Origin: a virus | IMG/VR virus record: IMGVR_UViG_3300028773_000013 | Span: 1-42,782 of that record | Length of the DNA: 42,782 bases | Reading direction: 5' to 3' (one strand) | In this document: piece after piece, positions 28,349 to 41,505 of the stretch | How the letters are laid out: each line of letters starts with the position of its first letter | How positions within the stretch are numbered: the stretch's first letter is position 1 | Translations under genes and position numbers: made by a program | The notes under the pieces: generated by a model | The model's database searches: none | Told to the model about the DNA's origin: nothing | The model's input: only the letters and a program-made list of their open reading frames with translations

Positions 28349-29380
28349 TTACGAAATCGCCGATGCAGCATCTATTTCGCGGATGCGGATCGTGGTGTCG
28401 GGACCGAGGCTGGTAGTGAAGTGAACCTTGTAACTGGTCCATCCAGGGATCAAACCTTCGGGGTCGGCAACGCTGTTAGGCGCATTCTGCGTGATGTTCG
28501 GCTTGATGTTGTTCCACTCGCCGTCACCGTACTCCGTGTCGCCCTGTGCTCCGAGCTTGATGGAGTAGATACCGTCACGACCGAAGATGTAAGTGCGAAG
28601 GGCGGTGAGGCCGGTGATCGCCTTATAGTTCGGAGTGGCAGTAACCTGATTCGACTGGAAGAAGCGGACGCCCGAGGACGGCAGCTCGATCATTTCGGTC
28701 AGGTCGGTGCTGATGAGGTCTTCCATGCGCATGAGGCCGACCGGAGTGTGCTTCAGGATGTCGATGGGGCTGTTGTTGCTGACATCAGAGAGCACGTCGC
28801 CGAGAGCGAACGGATGGATGACTCCACAGAAGCTCTTGGAAGCTTCGTCAAACGGACGGACGGAGCGACCTGCGAGGCCCTGCACGGCGTTACGAATCTG
28901 GTTCAAGCTGAGAGTCGTAAAGCTGGTGGTGCTGGTCGCGGCAAGCTGCACAAGGACGCTAGAATCAACTGCGGTAGCGCCGTCTGCGGTTGCGCGAACG
29001 AGACCAGAGAGGGATTCGCCGAGGCGATATGCCATCTCACGAGCAACGTTCTCAATCGTGTTGTCAATCGCGGTGGCGAGAGACAGCGAGGAGAAGTTGG
29101 CGAAGTCGGCGTACTCGCCGATGGTCGCGGTGGTATTCAGTACGGAAACAGTGATCGAGTTGCCGACAGTACCTTCCGTGGTCTGCGCAGTGTTCGCAGC
29201 CAGGGGCACGTACATAAACATCTCGTATTGATTACCACTTTTGGTGGGTAGGTCGAGTCGTTCGGAGCAAGCTACGAAAGGCGTCTGAGCCTTAAGATTT
29301 TCTCGGAACTTTTTATCATAGAACTTTACAGTGGACTGAGGCAGATTACTCTGGCCATTTGCTGCTGGGTTATAAGCCAT
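28349..29380 (-). CDS. Major capsid protein, N4-gp56-type, 343 aa
   Basis: The protein matches the pattern of N4-gp56-type capsid proteins: KFYDKKFRENLKAQTPFVAC, SGNQYEMFMYVPLAANTAQT then TEGTVGNSITV, EYADFANFSSLSLATAIDNT, SVRPFDEASKSFCGVIHPFA then LGDVLSD and FQSNQVTATPNYKA. These form the HK97-like fold with an N-terminal arm and central A domain. AAAGGT stands before the ATG. The gene lies after the scaffold-like gene and before a terminator. The 290-nt leader (29381-29670) is unusually structured. Confidence 0.9.
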   Translation of the reverse strand: MAYNPAANGQSNLPQSTVKFYDKKFRENLKAQTPFVACSERLDLPTKSGNQYEMFMYVPLAANTAQTTEGTVGNSITVSVLNTTATIGEYADFANFSSLSLATAIDNTIENVAREMAYRLGESLSGLVRATADGATAVDSSVLVQLAATSTTSFTTLSLNQIRNAVQGLAGRSVRPFDEASKSFCGVIHPFALGDVLSDVSNNSPIDILKHTPVGLMRMEDLISTDLTEMIELPSSGVRFFQSNQVTATPNYKAITGLTALRTYIFGRDGIYSIKLGAQGDTEYGDGEWNNIKPNITQNAPNSVADPEGLIPGWTSYKVHFTTSLGPDTTIRIREIDAASAIS

Positions 29381-31358: not shown

Positions 31359-33250
31359 TTACTGCACCTCTGGAGTCGAACCTTCAATACCCAAAGGGTT
31401 GGCTTGTCCTGAGACTGCCTCACTCTGGCCGTTGTCCTTGAATGCCTCGCGCACGATGTCGCGCTTGATACGTCCTTGGGTGGCTTGATCTTCGAGTTGC
31501 TGTTTCTGTTGAAACTTCTGTGTATTGCTCTGTTGTGTAACAGCGGCTTTCGATGCATTCTGAGCGGCGGCTGACTGAGCCTGACGACGTTGCTGCATCT
31601 CTGGTGTGAGAGGCTTGATGATGTCGTTGGAGTTCTTCCACTCCGAGGCTTCGAGCCACATTTCGACAATCGGCTTGAAGTCAATGTACTCTCCGTTGAT
31701 ATCGGCCAGTGAAGACTGAATCTGCGGATTCTCAAGGATCTGAGTGATGAGTGTAAGCGACTGTGCCATCGTGCGCTTCGCGGCCAATGATGACCCGGCG
31801 AGGACTTCGTACGAAATACGGGCATCGTGGAACGCCTGCATGTCGACTGAAATTTCCTTACCAACCTCATCGCCGAGAATCGCCGTGATCTCAGAATCCG
31901 ATAGGAAGTTGAGAATCAAGTCGTCCAAGATGTAGAGAAATGGTTTGAAGACTTGCTCGATGAAGTTGTCAAGAGGACCATCTAAGCGTGTCGCGCTAGC
32001 ACCCGCGAGGGTAGCTGCGCCGCCTGCCGTACGGCCCATTGAACTACGAGGGCCTGCGGAAGAACCTTGCACGAGTGCTTGGTCTGCGCCGGATGTGCTC
32101 TCTGTTGCCGTGTTGCTCTCCGACAATGCCGTCCAAATATCTGCGGGAACCTTGGGGGTTTCCATCAGCTTGTAGGCTTTGTCGATATCCGTGTCGACGG
32201 TCAGGATCTTACCCAGGCCGGTGCGGATCATCTGCGTCGGCGAGTTAGTGTCGCGCTTGCGCAGGTAAATAGGATTAACGCCAAAAGACAAAATCTTGAG
32301 TATGGCGTTGATTGTTCCTTGGTCGACGCGCTGATTCTGTCCTACTAGCAAACCGAGGCCCATACCATAGAAAGCCTTTGGGCGATTCATCCAGTTTGAC
32401 GATAGGAACGGAATTTTCTTGAAACGATTAGCGCCAGCAAAGATCACATGCTTACGGTCAATGACCATAATCTTTCGGCCTTTGTCCCAGTACTCCAAGA
32501 CTTCCATCTTCTTGAACAACAGGTCGGGGGTTACCTCGATGTTGATCTCTTCCGAGTGGTGAACGATACCCTTCGCGTACTGCGCGGTATCACTCTCAAT
32601 CGGGGCGGCTACGTTAGTGCTATAACCTTGCATCCACCAACTCTTGAGTTCTTCCTCGCTTAGAGGTAGTTCCCAACCGACGAGCTCGGGGTGGCCTTTC
32701 GGCAGCTCCGATAGAGCTTGACGGATGTTGTTGAGTGCGTAAAAGTCCATGTAGCGAACGTCGATCACGTAGTCAGCGGTGCGGATGTCTCCGACGCTCG
32801 TCTTAGGGTCGACCAGCACCGTGTTCAGCGGACGGCTCTCGAAGAACGGTCGCGGCACAGTGCGTACTTCTTTGGTTATGACTGGTAGTGTGTCCAGAGG
32901 GATCGTGATCTTCTCTGAGGTACTTGGATCGCTTCCGCTCGTGATGGTCGCGCTCGTAGCGGTACGCTTAGAGCTGACGATCTCCTTAAAGTCGATACCC
33001 CATTTCCATATGCCGGTGCCAAGCAGGGTCATCTGCTCTAAACCCCATTTGGTCTGGGTCTTGAACCCACACTCGTCAAGCAAGTAAGAGAACAGAGCAG
33101 TCTTTGCGTCTACGGTTTCTTGCGTGGTGCCTGGGCGCGGACGGAGGAGCATGGGCGGATCTTGGTAGAACAGACCCTTGTACAACTGAGGTACGATTGC
33201 GGAACAAACTTTAGCTACGGTGAAGCGCTGCACGTTCGGTTCTAACACAT
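31359..33250 (-). CDS. Portal protein, exon 2 (most of the protein)
   Basis: The segment codes for about 630 residues that begin, in the joined frame, YVLEPNVQRFTVAKVCSAIV then PQLYKGLFYQDPPMLLRPRP. It includes TVDTDIDKAYKLMETPKVPA then DIWTALSESNTATESTSGAD and a Gln-rich C-terminus (KAAVTQQSNTQKFQQKQQLE). This is the usual look of portal proteins of short-tailed phages, which form the DNA channel and bind terminase. It cannot start on its own: the GTG at 33248 has no ribosome-binding site and lies inside the intron/exon junction. Joined to exon 1 it gives a 704-residue protein. The position after terminase fits. Confidence 0.85.
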
Positions 33251-33473
33251 CAATATGTTATCGGCTTGCGCCGAGATAGGGCATTTCTGCCTACCTCTGC
33301 ATGTTTTTATTCCATGCAGGTCGGACTATCGCTTCACCCTAAAGGGTGTCGTCTCACTTAGTCTCTCACGCTGCTGAAGTTATCAGCTTGCGCCCTGTTA
33401 GCCATTTCAGCTTCCAAGTCAATCAGAGTCGATTCGCACTCTCGAATTTCGGCGAGGTGCCCCATGTATGTCT
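33251..33473 (-). ncRNA. Group I self-splicing intron in the portal gene, 223 nt, without ORF for an endonuclease
   Basis: Removing these bases joins exon 1 (ending ENT plus a T) to AT-GTG-TTA and gives ENTYVLEPN in one frame. The last exon base is U and pairs with G in CCUA/UGGG (P1). Intron bases ACAUACAU, next to the guide, pair with the first bases of exon 2 (AUGUGU), a P10. The intron ends in G. GACUA (33359-33363) and UAGUC (33324-33328) form P7; CACCC/GGGUG (33335-33348) forms P8; AAGCGAUAGUCC is the typical P7 region. CUGCAUG/CAUGCAG (P9), GGCA-GAAA-UGCC and UCGGC-GCAA-GCCGA end in GNRA loops. GCUGAA/UUCAGC is a likely P4. P3 and P6 are tentative. Confidence 0.88.
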
Positions 33474-33696
33474 AGGTATTTTCGTACACACTCATCGGTC
33501 GCGGCGACTGGAACAGAAGGTCGGCATCACGCCAGAGCAAATTCCATTGCTTATCATTCACGAACTGAATAGATCTTGTTGCAGCTCCGACGACTAAGTT
33601 CAACTCCGCATTGGAGGTCTTTAGGTCCGAACCTTTACCATAATCGCTAGGGTTTAGTGTCCCTGTGACTGGCCCTTCTGATGTTATCTCACCCAC
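33474..33696 (-). CDS. Portal protein, exon 1 (N-terminal 74 residues)
   Basis: The exon starts at GTG 33696, six bases after AGGAGG; the ATG at 33700 is in another frame. It encodes GEITSEGPVTGTLNPSDYGK at the start and WNLLWRDADLLFQSPRPMSV then YENT at the end, a typical N-terminal portal segment that leads into FTVAKV in exon 2. Read without splicing it stops at TAG (33472) directly after YENT. The 5' splice site is after the U at 33474. The gene therefore makes a full portal only if the intron is removed. Confidence 0.8.
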
Positions 33697-33787
33697 TCAT
33701 AGCCTCCTGCCTTTTCTTGTAAGAGTTCAATTCACCCGCGTGCCTTCTGCACCACGTCTGGGCGTAGGAAAATGACGTGCCCGTCAT
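33689..33787 (-). CDS. Possible 32-aa peptide overlapping the portal start
   Basis: The frame MTGTSFSYAQTWCRRHAGEL then NSYKKRQEAMSG ends in TGA that overlaps the portal start by seven bases. It has no good ribosome-binding site. Its first codons form one arm of a perfect hairpin ATGACG-GGCA-CGTCAT (33772-33787), and another hairpin GCCGC/GCGGC precedes it. The region might instead be an RNA element that controls portal translation. Confidence 0.3.
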   Translation of the reverse strand: MTGTSFSYAQTWCRRHAGELNSYKKRQEAMSG

Positions 33788-33860
33788 GCCGCCATGAATT
33801 GCGGCGTCCGCTGGTTTGAACTCGAACTAACCAGTTTTTCCGCGAGTGAGTCAGTGCAGC

Positions 33861-33974
33861 TTATTTCTTTTTCTTGACATCTTTCTTCAAAACTTGTTTG
33901 AGAAGTTTGGCGTCGTTTTTGCCATCCTGTTTTGCGAAATCTTTCACTACCTTCTTAGCTAATGCCTTTGACAT
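33861..33974 (-). CDS. Very small Lys-rich protein, 37 aa
   Basis: The frame MSKALAKKVVKDFAKQDGKN then DAKLLKQVLKKDVKKKK starts 13 bases after the terminase stop, with AAGGGAAG before it. It is almost half lysine and would be highly basic. Such small basic proteins can bind DNA or help packaging. Its spacing between terminase and portal genes and its ribosome-binding site support it being real. Function unknown. Confidence 0.6.
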   Translation of the reverse strand: MSKALAKKVVKDFAKQDGKNDAKLLKQVLKKDVKKKK

Positions 33975-33986
33975 ACTCTTCCCTTT

Positions 33987-36035
33987 TTAGCCGAATAGAC
34001 CGGCGTCGGACAGTGGGTCTTTATCGCCACCGTCGTCGTCTCTGAACAACCGATTGTTCTGCACTTGGTAGGCAGTGGACGGGTTGTCGTCGTTTTGAAT
34101 TGCGTTGGCATTCAGATGAGCGTACTTGCCAACTCCATAGATCATGTCGTGCATCGCTTTCGACTTAGCGTCGGCGGCAAAGCTCATGTCTGTGTTGTCG
34201 ACGCGTTTTCCCATCTCTGCCCAACCCTCGAATACATCTACGAGGATGGAGAATGCAGATACGATGTCGTCGTGCTTATCTTCTGAGGTGCCGGTGAACT
34301 GTGTGAGCTCGTTCAGAATCTCATCGTATCCTTCGCAGGAGTTGAGGAGTTTCAAACGGTCGTCACCGAGCAGGCGGATGAAAGGCTTGGCCTTCATCTT
34401 CTTCGAGTTGGCTTTGCTTCCTAGTCCCAGGGAAACATATTCCACAGGAATGCTTATCTGAAGCTTGTCCATCTCGCGCTTGAGTTCGCGGCCCATCCAC
34501 TTCACGCCGACCGACTCCTCGATAGCGATTCGCTTAGGTTTCCACTTGGCAGCGGTGGCGGCGAGTACGGCAGGAAGCTCCACGTCGTTGAATCGTCCGC
34601 GTACCATGTTCAGCACGTAGAAGCGTCCGCCATAGATCAGAGCGGTAACGGCAACCGTGTAGTCTGCCCAACTCTTCGTAGAGTACGCGGTGTCGACGGC
34701 CATCACGACTACTCCCTGATGAGGGAGGTCATTGTGCTTGATCGTCGCGCCTACTAGTAGCTCACGAGGAATCTTTACCTTGTTGATCTTGCGCGGATTG
34801 TTGAGATACTTGATTGCGAAGTTGCCTTTACCTGCGTCCTGCTTCTCATACTTCTTGAGAAGTTCATACGGTAGGCGTGAGGGGAACCAAAGCTCCAGGT
34901 CATCTTTCTTCGCGATGTCATCAGTCTTACCGGCCTTGATCGCCTCGGGCGTTAGCCACCAGCATGCACGCAGGTAAGTCTTTACCATGACGGCGCTCTC
35001 AAACCGGCCACTCTCGACAGAACCGTGAATGTTCCCTTGAAGGCCCATCTCTTCCGCGAAAGTTTCTTCCTGTTTGATAGTTATGCCGTAGAAGTCATAC
35101 TCGTCGTACCACGTACCGATTACGTCAAAGAAACCGTAAGGGTGCATCATAGCTTTGTTGATGCTGATTTGGTCGTTGATCTTCGAGAGACGTTCTGGTG
35201 TCTGACTGTTTTCGTTTGTTACCACGTCGTCAAGCTTCAGGATTCCGAAGTGCTGACCGACGAGGGACTGCTCGATAGACGCGGCTTCTACGGTCGACTC
35301 TTTGTCGTTACCGCCAGCAGGCGTCTGAAATTTGAATTGGCTCCCGTCGTTAGGCTGAATGCAGTGCTCTGGGAAGAGCGTCTGAAACAAACTGGGTGTC
35401 CACTCATTAGTTTCTGCGTTAAGCATCATGCGAGGGACGAAGCCAGCTTTACCTGCTTTGCCGGGGGCGTTCACATCCTCTTCGAGAGTGAAGTGCTGCT
35501 TCAACTCACCTACAAAGTCTCCGGCCAGTTTGTACACACCGGTTAGGATTAGGATGGTAACAGCGGGGAAACATATTACCCATTGCACACAATCTGCGAT
35601 GTCGATACTTGACTTGAATCCGCCGCGTGGTACGAGCAGCAATCGTTCCTTCAAATCAGTGTACTGGTTAGCAAACATCTCGAAAGTAGCAAAGGTCGGA
35701 TTCTTCTGCGTGAAGAATTTGTTGCAAATGTCTTCGTGCGTTTTGATCGTGACTTGGTTGTATTTTTCCAAGACATGACAAAGGAAGTAAAGATTGGTTT
35801 GGCAAAGAAAACGGAGTTTTAAAAACTCAGTCTGATTCTCGGGGGTTACCGGCTCACCATTCTTCTCAAGCAAGTTCGTCCACGATTGCATTGCCTTCAC
35901 CTGTTGTGCAGGAGGCAAACGCAGAAACGAGACCTGGGCCATTGCCAGAATCTCGTCTTGTGTTTTATCGCGGAATTGGTAGTTCGGATCTAGGTAAGAC
36001 GACGCAGCAAGATCTCTGAGTTTAGCGAGATGCAT
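33987..36035 (-). CDS. terL: Terminase large subunit, 682 aa
   Basis: The N-terminal ATPase has a Walker A-like PRGGFKSS (residues about 136-143) and Walker B ILKLDD (265-270, D269/D270). The nuclease half has VVMAVDTAYS (D448), RIAIEES (E506/E507) and SEDKHDDIVSAFS (D589/D590), the acidic triad that binds metal in terminase nucleases. This enzyme drives DNA into the prohead and cuts the concatemer. The small subunit is not recognised in the window. A good GGGAGGG ribosome-binding site is upstream and the gene is followed by a small basic gene and the portal. Confidence 0.92.
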   Translation of the reverse strand: MHLAKLRDLAASSYLDPNYQFRDKTQDEILAMAQVSFLRLPPAQQVKAMQSWTNLLEKNGEPVTPENQTEFLKLRFLCQTNLYFLCHVLEKYNQVTIKTHEDICNKFFTQKNPTFATFEMFANQYTDLKERLLLVPRGGFKSSIDIADCVQWVICFPAVTILILTGVYKLAGDFVGELKQHFTLEEDVNAPGKAGKAGFVPRMMLNAETNEWTPSLFQTLFPEHCIQPNDGSQFKFQTPAGGNDKESTVEAASIEQSLVGQHFGILKLDDVVTNENSQTPERLSKINDQISINKAMMHPYGFFDVIGTWYDEYDFYGITIKQEETFAEEMGLQGNIHGSVESGRFESAVMVKTYLRACWWLTPEAIKAGKTDDIAKKDDLELWFPSRLPYELLKKYEKQDAGKGNFAIKYLNNPRKINKVKIPRELLVGATIKHNDLPHQGVVVMAVDTAYSTKSWADYTVAVTALIYGGRFYVLNMVRGRFNDVELPAVLAATAAKWKPKRIAIEESVGVKWMGRELKREMDKLQISIPVEYVSLGLGSKANSKKMKAKPFIRLLGDDRLKLLNSCEGYDEILNELTQFTGTSEDKHDDIVSAFSILVDVFEGWAEMGKRVDNTDMSFAADAKSKAMHDMIYGVGKYAHLNANAIQNDDNPSTAYQVQNNRLFRDDDGGDKDPLSDAGLFG

Positions 36036-41076: not shown

Positions 41077-41505
41077 TCATGCCATACATTCAATAGGTTT
41101 GGCGGGAGGTATATATACGAATCCTACAACCGGCGTTCTAAAAGCAGTAGGTAGTTCCTTCTTTTTCTCTCTGTTCATGCGCACCGGATCGAATCGGTGA
41201 ACCTTCTTATGACAGCTAAGGCATAGTGGAACTAAGTTCTGAGGGCAGTCGTGGCCTCCTCGCGATAAATAAACGATGTGGTGCCACTGATCGTACCCTT
41301 TCTTATCACAGCAATAGCATTTGATATAAGGGTTAGTGGCCGGTAGATGCTTGCGCTTGTAGTCCGCGTATCGTCCGCGCCGGAACTGTAAGGCCTGACC
41401 GGTCCACTCTCTGGGCGTACCTGCGCTTCCGTGTTTGCGCAGCCAGTCCAGTCGATCTTTGAGCTTTACTGAACTGTACTTCTTTTTGGGAAAACTTATC
41501 GCCAT
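41077..41505 (-). CDS. HNH endonuclease, 142 aa
   Basis: A CYCC pair (C63-C66), then YDQWHHIVYLSRGGHDCPQN (HH at 75-76, N90) and LVPLCLSCHKKVH (C95, C98, H99, H103) form the zinc-bound HNH fold, here in the WHH variant typical of phage HNH nucleases. The N-terminus is basic (MAISFPKKKYSSVKLKDRLD), likely DNA-binding. Some such enzymes help terminase cut DNA; others are free-standing homing endonucleases. It is far from TerL here (5 kb), so a selfish role is as likely. AGGA stands before the ATG. Confidence 0.85.
   Translation of the reverse strand: MAISFPKKKYSSVKLKDRLDWLRKHGSAGTPREWTGQALQFRRGRYADYKRKHLPATNPYIKCYCCDKKGYDQWHHIVYLSRGGHDCPQNLVPLCLSCHKKVHRFDPVRMNREKKKELPTAFRTPVVGFVYIPPAKPIECMA

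Follow-up and report, generated by a model that had tools for sequence, protein, structure and literature searches.

Compact group I introns in phage genes

Compact group I introns are already known from several phage genes. The minor tail gene of the Cluster J mycobacteriophages BAKA and Optimus carries a 265-bp intron with no endonuclease, and its splicing was seen by RT-PCR in BAKA (PMC3706429). For the Jug phages, a clade of huge gut phages, 2,513 group I introns with a mean length of approximately 206 nt are listed in a preprint, which supports splicing for 37 of 76, and describes the portal genes as "fragmented and/or highly divergent" (PMC12363816). In a crAss-like phage, one head-protein gene is divided into five fragments, with three segments of intron type (PMC7886860), and terminase introns are also known (PMC8541194). 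Concerning the spread of such elements, collaborative homing has been described, in which the intron shields its own gene while a free-standing endonuclease cuts the intron-less alleles (PMC6083498). In the passages of the literature consulted, no description of a group I intron in a portal gene was found.

Herein, we analysed a virus record of 42,782 bases, IMGVR_UViG_3300028773_000013 (hereafter the window). Judged from its sequence, the insert at 33473..33251 on the minus strand is almost certainly a genuine group I intron of known kind in the portal gene. Since compact introns in phage head genes have already been published, our claim is limited to a new member and a new, well-resolved site. 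Like the Cluster J introns in the BAKA minor tail gene and the LittleE capsid gene, the window intron is compact, lies in a virion gene, follows a U at the exon end and ends in G, and it is ORF-less like that of BAKA (PMC3706429). In contrast to it, the Cluster J introns sit in another gene and another phage, are not recognisably similar in their 5' half, and gave no match to R1, the covariance model described below. The Jug phages share introns of about 206 nt in essential genes and have many stand-alone endonucleases; however, they are huge gut phages, and the likeness is one of description, not of sequence (PMC12363816). The first-pass annotation had called a portal host and an ORF-less length of 223 nt unusual, which was overstated given the nine intron kinds found at the same site, the 265-bp tail intron and the Jug introns (PMC3706429, PMC12363816).

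The interrupted portal gene and its intact relatives

On the minus strand of the window, the genes are ordered terminase (33987-36035), portal and major head protein (28349-29380), the last being one open frame. Among 50,697 named phage records, the sole match to the window was Tunturiibacter phage Tunturi_3, a podovirus with a host in the Acidobacteriota (PMC11924767), whose portal is 70.8% identical to portal exon 2 of the window. Exon 1 (33474..33696, minus strand) consists of 223 bases, or 74 codons plus one base, and ends in U; its GTG start at 33696 is preceded by AGGAGG at 33708-33703, and its product was aligned to residues 10-80 of the Tunturi_3 portal. Exon 2 (31359..33250, minus strand, stop included) encodes an SU10/P22-like portal. 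The frame is stopped after YENT and resumes in exon 2 without a start signal, exon 1 ending in ...AAT ACC T and exon 2 beginning with AT GTG TTA GAA. Excision of 33473..33251 gives a single portal ORF of 704 residues with zero internal stops; the 223-nt removal and the YENT/YVLEPN junction proposed at first pass are thus exact to the base. To a gene caller the portal looks shortened, and the intron goes unflagged by Rfam.

The intron (33251..33473, minus strand; 223 nt, ORF-less) extends from A33473, its first nucleotide after the exonic U, to the omega-G at 33251, its last. An in-frame UAG stop (33472..33474, minus strand) is formed across the 5' splice site, and in-frame stops are regarded as stalling ribosomes and thereby giving the intron time to fold (PMC3984707). 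We propose that the compact, ORF-less intron would splice itself out of the portal pre-mRNA in two transesterifications initiated by guanosine, yielding one 704-residue portal, and that the UAG may stall ribosomes while the intron folds. Programmed readthrough or hopping was set aside, as the insert of 223 bases is out of phase and begins with an in-frame stop.

The portal site was compared among 61 relatives with a readable portal 5' end, i.e. 60 of 66 viral loci (loci are numbered with L) and Tunturi_3; the six loci without the 5' end were excluded, as was L068, which is 22% identical. As expected if the window portal is interrupted by an intron, the intron-less relatives run through the site: it was read through in 57 of the 61, as YENTY in 54 and in diverged form (FEGSY or WEGTQ) in three. 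The remaining four are interrupted and comprise three copies of the window (L002, L003 and L004) and L043, whose portal is 62% identical and carries its own 186-base insert at exactly the same base. In a survey of 82 portal places (copies included), 59 were empty and 23 filled, and the filled places hold nine kinds of intron of 186-242 nt, each preceded by U and terminated by G.

These comparisons bear on two other explanations. Both ORFs flanking the insert are open, which would also be the case if the locus encoded a peptide of 74 residues and, separately, a portal of 629 residues starting from GTG 33248, with the insert as a spacer or gene break. However, 57 of the 61 relatives encode a single protein across the site, nine kinds of insert preserve an RNA structure, and no ribosome-binding site is visible before GTG 33248, which makes two proteins very improbable. 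That the interruption of the portal gene stems from faulty assembly or reads is scarcely conceivable: the copies L002, L003 and L004, IMG/VR contigs with other metagenome numbers, share the sequence and show no difference from the window in the 875, 3001 and 3001 bases examined upstream of the portal, so that it is not one assembly's error, and eight other kinds of homologous intron occupy the same base.

Structure of the intron and its family

The insert forms the P3-P8 core with a P3/P7 pseudoknot that characterises group I introns. Its folding z was -5.2, and none of 200 shuffles was equally low. P2 is a hairpin at 33436..33460 (minus strand, as are all elements below), in which six of eight pairs show double changes among the nine same-site introns. 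The 5' strand of P3 (33426..33432) faces the 3' strand at 33355-33349, with six of seven pairs formed and one A.A mismatch. P4-P5 (33394..33418) and P6 with its inner hairpin (33368..33393) were placed by alignment, and P5 is closed in the fold by a five-base loop, GAAAU. P7, the guanosine-binding helix, has the 5' strand G-(A)-GACUA with a bulge (33359..33365) and the 3' strand UAGUCC (33328-33323). The guanosine-binding site in P7 is formed by the G-C pair beside the bulged base, and this feature is present in the window. P8 (33335..33348) is a hairpin placed by covariation alignments. Folding, alignment and the match to the Cluster J intron locate P9, P9.1 with a GAAA loop and P9.2 with a GCAA loop at 33262..33320; three GNRA loops had been counted at first pass, and only these two are clean tetraloops. 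Introns of group IA with P7.1/P7.2 have extra hairpins between P7 and P3'; none was found in the window, where three bases separate P7 from P3'.

At the 5' splice site, the guide (IGS) GGG at 33461..33463 forms P1 with exon CCU at 33476-33474, with a U.G at the splice site itself; P1 of the window comprises three standard pairs followed by an A.G mismatch. The U.G in P1 and the last base G are common to all nine same-site kinds. P1 also covaries across the splice site: exon CCU is combined with guide GGG in eight kinds, and CUU with GAG in the L292/L293/L303 kind, in which the exon change is matched by an intron change. The adjacent strand AUACAU (33464..33469) can form P10 with AUGUGU of exon 2 (33250-33245), including one G.U, as judged by eye. 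Inspected in the same way, the six-pair P10 occurs in the window and L277 and is absent in the other seven of the nine same-site kinds, and P10 was therefore rejected as a general feature of the family. The U.G, the guide GGG, the 6-bp P10, the GACUA/UAGUC of P7, P8 and the last G, all listed by the first-pass annotation, are each seen at the locus.

Folding also allows a hairpin that joins the 3' splice site and exon 2 and would compete with P10. Along with the short P1, this hairpin would fit an intron that splices poorly or conditionally and thereby regulates portal dosage. The four portals nearest to that of the window on the tree (L005, L006, L153 and L007) are intron-less, the fifth, L277, being intron-bearing; relatives thus manage without the intron, and no feature pointing to regulation was found in the few analyses that bear on it. 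We consider regulation of dosage unlikely, and the earlier suggestion that the intron controls portal synthesis gained no supporting evidence.

The conservation of the core was assessed by covariation. Pattern scans of IMG/VR for related cores returned at least 120, at least 120 and 20 stretches, and at least 158 distinct cores were parsed from all loci, at least 157 of them other than the window core. The search pattern fixed the GACUA/UAGUC of P7 and left the outer P7 pair free. Among the at least 157 other cores, this outer pair was A-U in 118, G-C in 36, C-G in two and U-A in one, i.e. paired in 157 of 157 listed, compared with a shuffle mean of 79%. The 157-core parse, which misses the L043 type, was used for the P7 counts; P3 and P5 were taken from the 55-core and nine-intron alignments. 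For the 55-core alignment, the 70 shortest of 91 diverse cores were taken and 15 left out, namely L092 and L272, which closely resemble the window, together with the final 13; the closest core kept was L277 (0.79). In this alignment, scored on the group I core with P3 and P7 crossing, 96.9% of cells were paired versus 38-46.1% in slid versions, double changes occurred in 21 of 31 pairs (shuffle mean 16.4; 0 of 500 as high), and double-change cells numbered 279 versus 70 in shuffles. The nine same-site introns with their flanks gave 95.3% of cells paired versus 35-45% when slid, and double changes in 21 of 50 pairs (7.5 in shuffles; 0 of 500 as high); seven of the nine have lost the outermost pair of P4, and eight the innermost pair of P6. 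With at least 157 further distinct cores in this family, annotation errors may affect head genes in many phages.

An Rfam search of the whole window at the gathering score detected two tRNAs and zero group I introns, and no group I match was obtained at E 10 in the 991 bases around the locus. RF00028, sought directly in the window and L043 records, did not match even at E 10. The first-pass annotation had taken the absence of a covariance-model match on the minus strand as a ground for rejecting the intron, and for RF00028 the match is indeed absent. In the controls, the direct search gave a signal in eight of 14 control genomes and exceeded the cut-off in two. At the gathering score, RF00028 caught no intron of this core in 20 relatives' loci; it matched two same-core places in L166 (48.9 bits, E 1.5e-9; 35.8 bits, E 1.2e-5) and, weakly, the LittleE capsid intron (30.7 bits, E 4e-4). 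Since L166 is the only one of the scanned loci in which RF00028 catches this core, its silence says little; RF00028 is a detection model and not a defining feature. RF00028 matches in L305 (3056-3235) and L298 were dropped as links, the former because it overlaps no R1 match there and the latter likewise.

The model R1 was built from the 55 related cores with the window excluded, and covers P4-P8 with P3 omitted; among its rows is the core of L277, an intron at the same portal site with an identity of 0.79 to the window core. In the window, R1 matched 33432..33323 on the minus strand with 86.4 bits (E 2.6e-16), the single place at E 10. Six of 35 further loci were matched: L071 (104.7 bits), L074 (103.9 bits), L043 (64.5 bits), the window copy L003, and, more weakly at about 41 bits, L006 (4674-4815) and L031 (6446-6569). 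In L006 and L031 the match lies within a split head-protein gene, and their portals are without an intron. The Cluster J loci L072 and L073 gave no R1 match at E 1.

BLASTN of the 223-nt insert against phage records yielded 80 records at E 10, of which four were examined. A P22-type coat gene is split at the match in MW202674.1 (E 3e-11), a ribonucleotide reductase is split in Roseobacter phage CRP-118 (E 5e-3), and the other two are Cluster J mycobacteriophages (E 2e-2). According to R1, the MW202674.1 coat gene (104.7 bits) and the CRP-118 ribonucleotide reductase gene (103.9 bits) carry the same core as the window; they are other host genes than the portal and are without intron annotation in the stretches examined. 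The similarity between the window intron and the minor-tail intron region of Mycobacterium phage Beem covers 62 bases, from P8 to P9.1, with a score of 32 compared with at most 18 in 2000 shuffles, and Baka appears in the same BLASTN match list as Beem. Collectively, the R1 match, the covariation and the empty sites strongly support the group I intron in the portal gene that the first-pass annotation had proposed.

A free-standing endonuclease ORF and the probable spread of the portal introns

Further putative introns lie near this insertion site in the portals of relatives. By eye, they follow GACCU in L309 and L306 and, seven bases downstream, ATCCU in L309 and L156; further portal sites with other guide sequences were seen in L291, L294, L296 and L304. 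At least one insert over 120 bases was present in 23 of 96 portal loci, five of which have two, and in 32 of 72 head-protein loci, of which L131 has four (copies included in all counts).

Intron-bearing relatives have an ORF of approximately 184-211 residues between terminase and portal. Pfam detected GIY-YIG and/or NUMOD3 domains in five of six upstream ORFs tested; the L214 ORF, in which Pfam found no domain, was counted by its similarity to the others. The ORF was present in 14 of 17 distinct intron-bearing portals, including a partial match of 58 residues in L156, the exceptions being the window, L295 and L297 (707 upstream bases examined). Of 46 distinct intron-less portals, one (L214) has the ORF, 43 lack it and two are unjudgeable. 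The association of endonuclease and intron gave a Fisher p of 4e-10, with kinship ignored and rows that are non-independent. The distinct-portal count keeps shortened near-copies (L292/L293/L303, L296/L297/L300 and L043/L310), L156 and L309 were scored as intron-bearing although the intron in them is shifted seven bases downstream, and some of the intron-bearing loci had been retrieved with an intron pattern. Counted by intron-sequence kind, nine of 11 have the endonuclease ORF, among them L156 with its partial match and L291, where the contig end truncates it.

In the window, tblastn at 1e-4 gave no match to an endonuclease gene or remnant between terminase and portal. The endonuclease having been lost or never acquired, this copy of the intron is probably passive now. 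The terminase-portal gap of the window (33697-33986, 290 bases) contains a 37-residue Lys-rich ORF and approximately 150 further bases; a small ORF similar to it is present in the intron-less L007, and the gap is almost absent in L005 and L006.

The arrangement in the relatives resembles that of the S-PM2 psbA intron and the free-standing F-CphI, in that the intron-bearing gene adjoins the endonuclease gene (PMC6083498). F-CphI is of the Endo VII type with a reported specificity for the intron-less gene (PMC6083498), whereas the endonuclease of the relatives is GIY-YIG by sequence and is absent in the window. We suggest that the adjoining free-standing GIY-YIG endonuclease would cut intron-less alleles, that the intron would protect its own allele from this cutting, and that the introns probably spread between portal genes in this manner, by collaborative homing.

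On a tree of 62 portals, 15 of which have the intron, the intron label needs eight changes, all forced by well-supported branches. The label is clustered (eight changes versus 13.6 in shuffles) and its presence patchy. Such clustering would also fit vertical descent of the same-site introns from a single ancient insertion that was lost many times, with the endonuclease upstream as a passenger. In keeping with this, two sub-types partly follow portal clades, and the window intron is 0.80 identical to that of L277 and 0.67-0.74 to the others. On the other side stand the minimum of eight changes on 62 portals and the co-occurrence of endonuclease ORF and intron in separate clades. Vertical descent thus has a minor though real chance.

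Returning to homing, a more specific model, to which we give about even chances, can be drawn from the sequence comparisons. The portal 5' end would be an intron-homing hotspot driven by the free-standing GIY-YIG endonuclease encoded between terminase and portal, where one ORF-less intron lineage, reading little beyond CCU, would have settled at no fewer than three nearby sites. Carriers of the endonuclease would escape self-cutting by the intron or by a changed site, as may be the case in L214, which has the endonuclease gene and no intron, and whose site reads AATTCA|TAT versus AATACCT in the window. The window would then represent a late stage, with the enzyme gone and the intron left. The portal system combines nine intron kinds at a single base with 46 distinct alleles that are empty and an endonuclease ORF linked to the intron, and it lends itself to a direct test of collaborative homing in a virion gene.

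Several observations were made beside the portal. The major head protein gene of L131 (934-3370) is broken into six pieces; it contains at least four inserts, 209-646 bases long, and three R1 matches. Three R1 matches per contig were also found in L177 (5194-6006), L207 (1974-3349) and L146 (10081-11220), where core starts are as close as 257 bases, implying very short exons or stacked introns. In addition, the window contains an HNH endonuclease ORF at 41077-41505 (PF01844, E 9e-9), possibly another homing gene.
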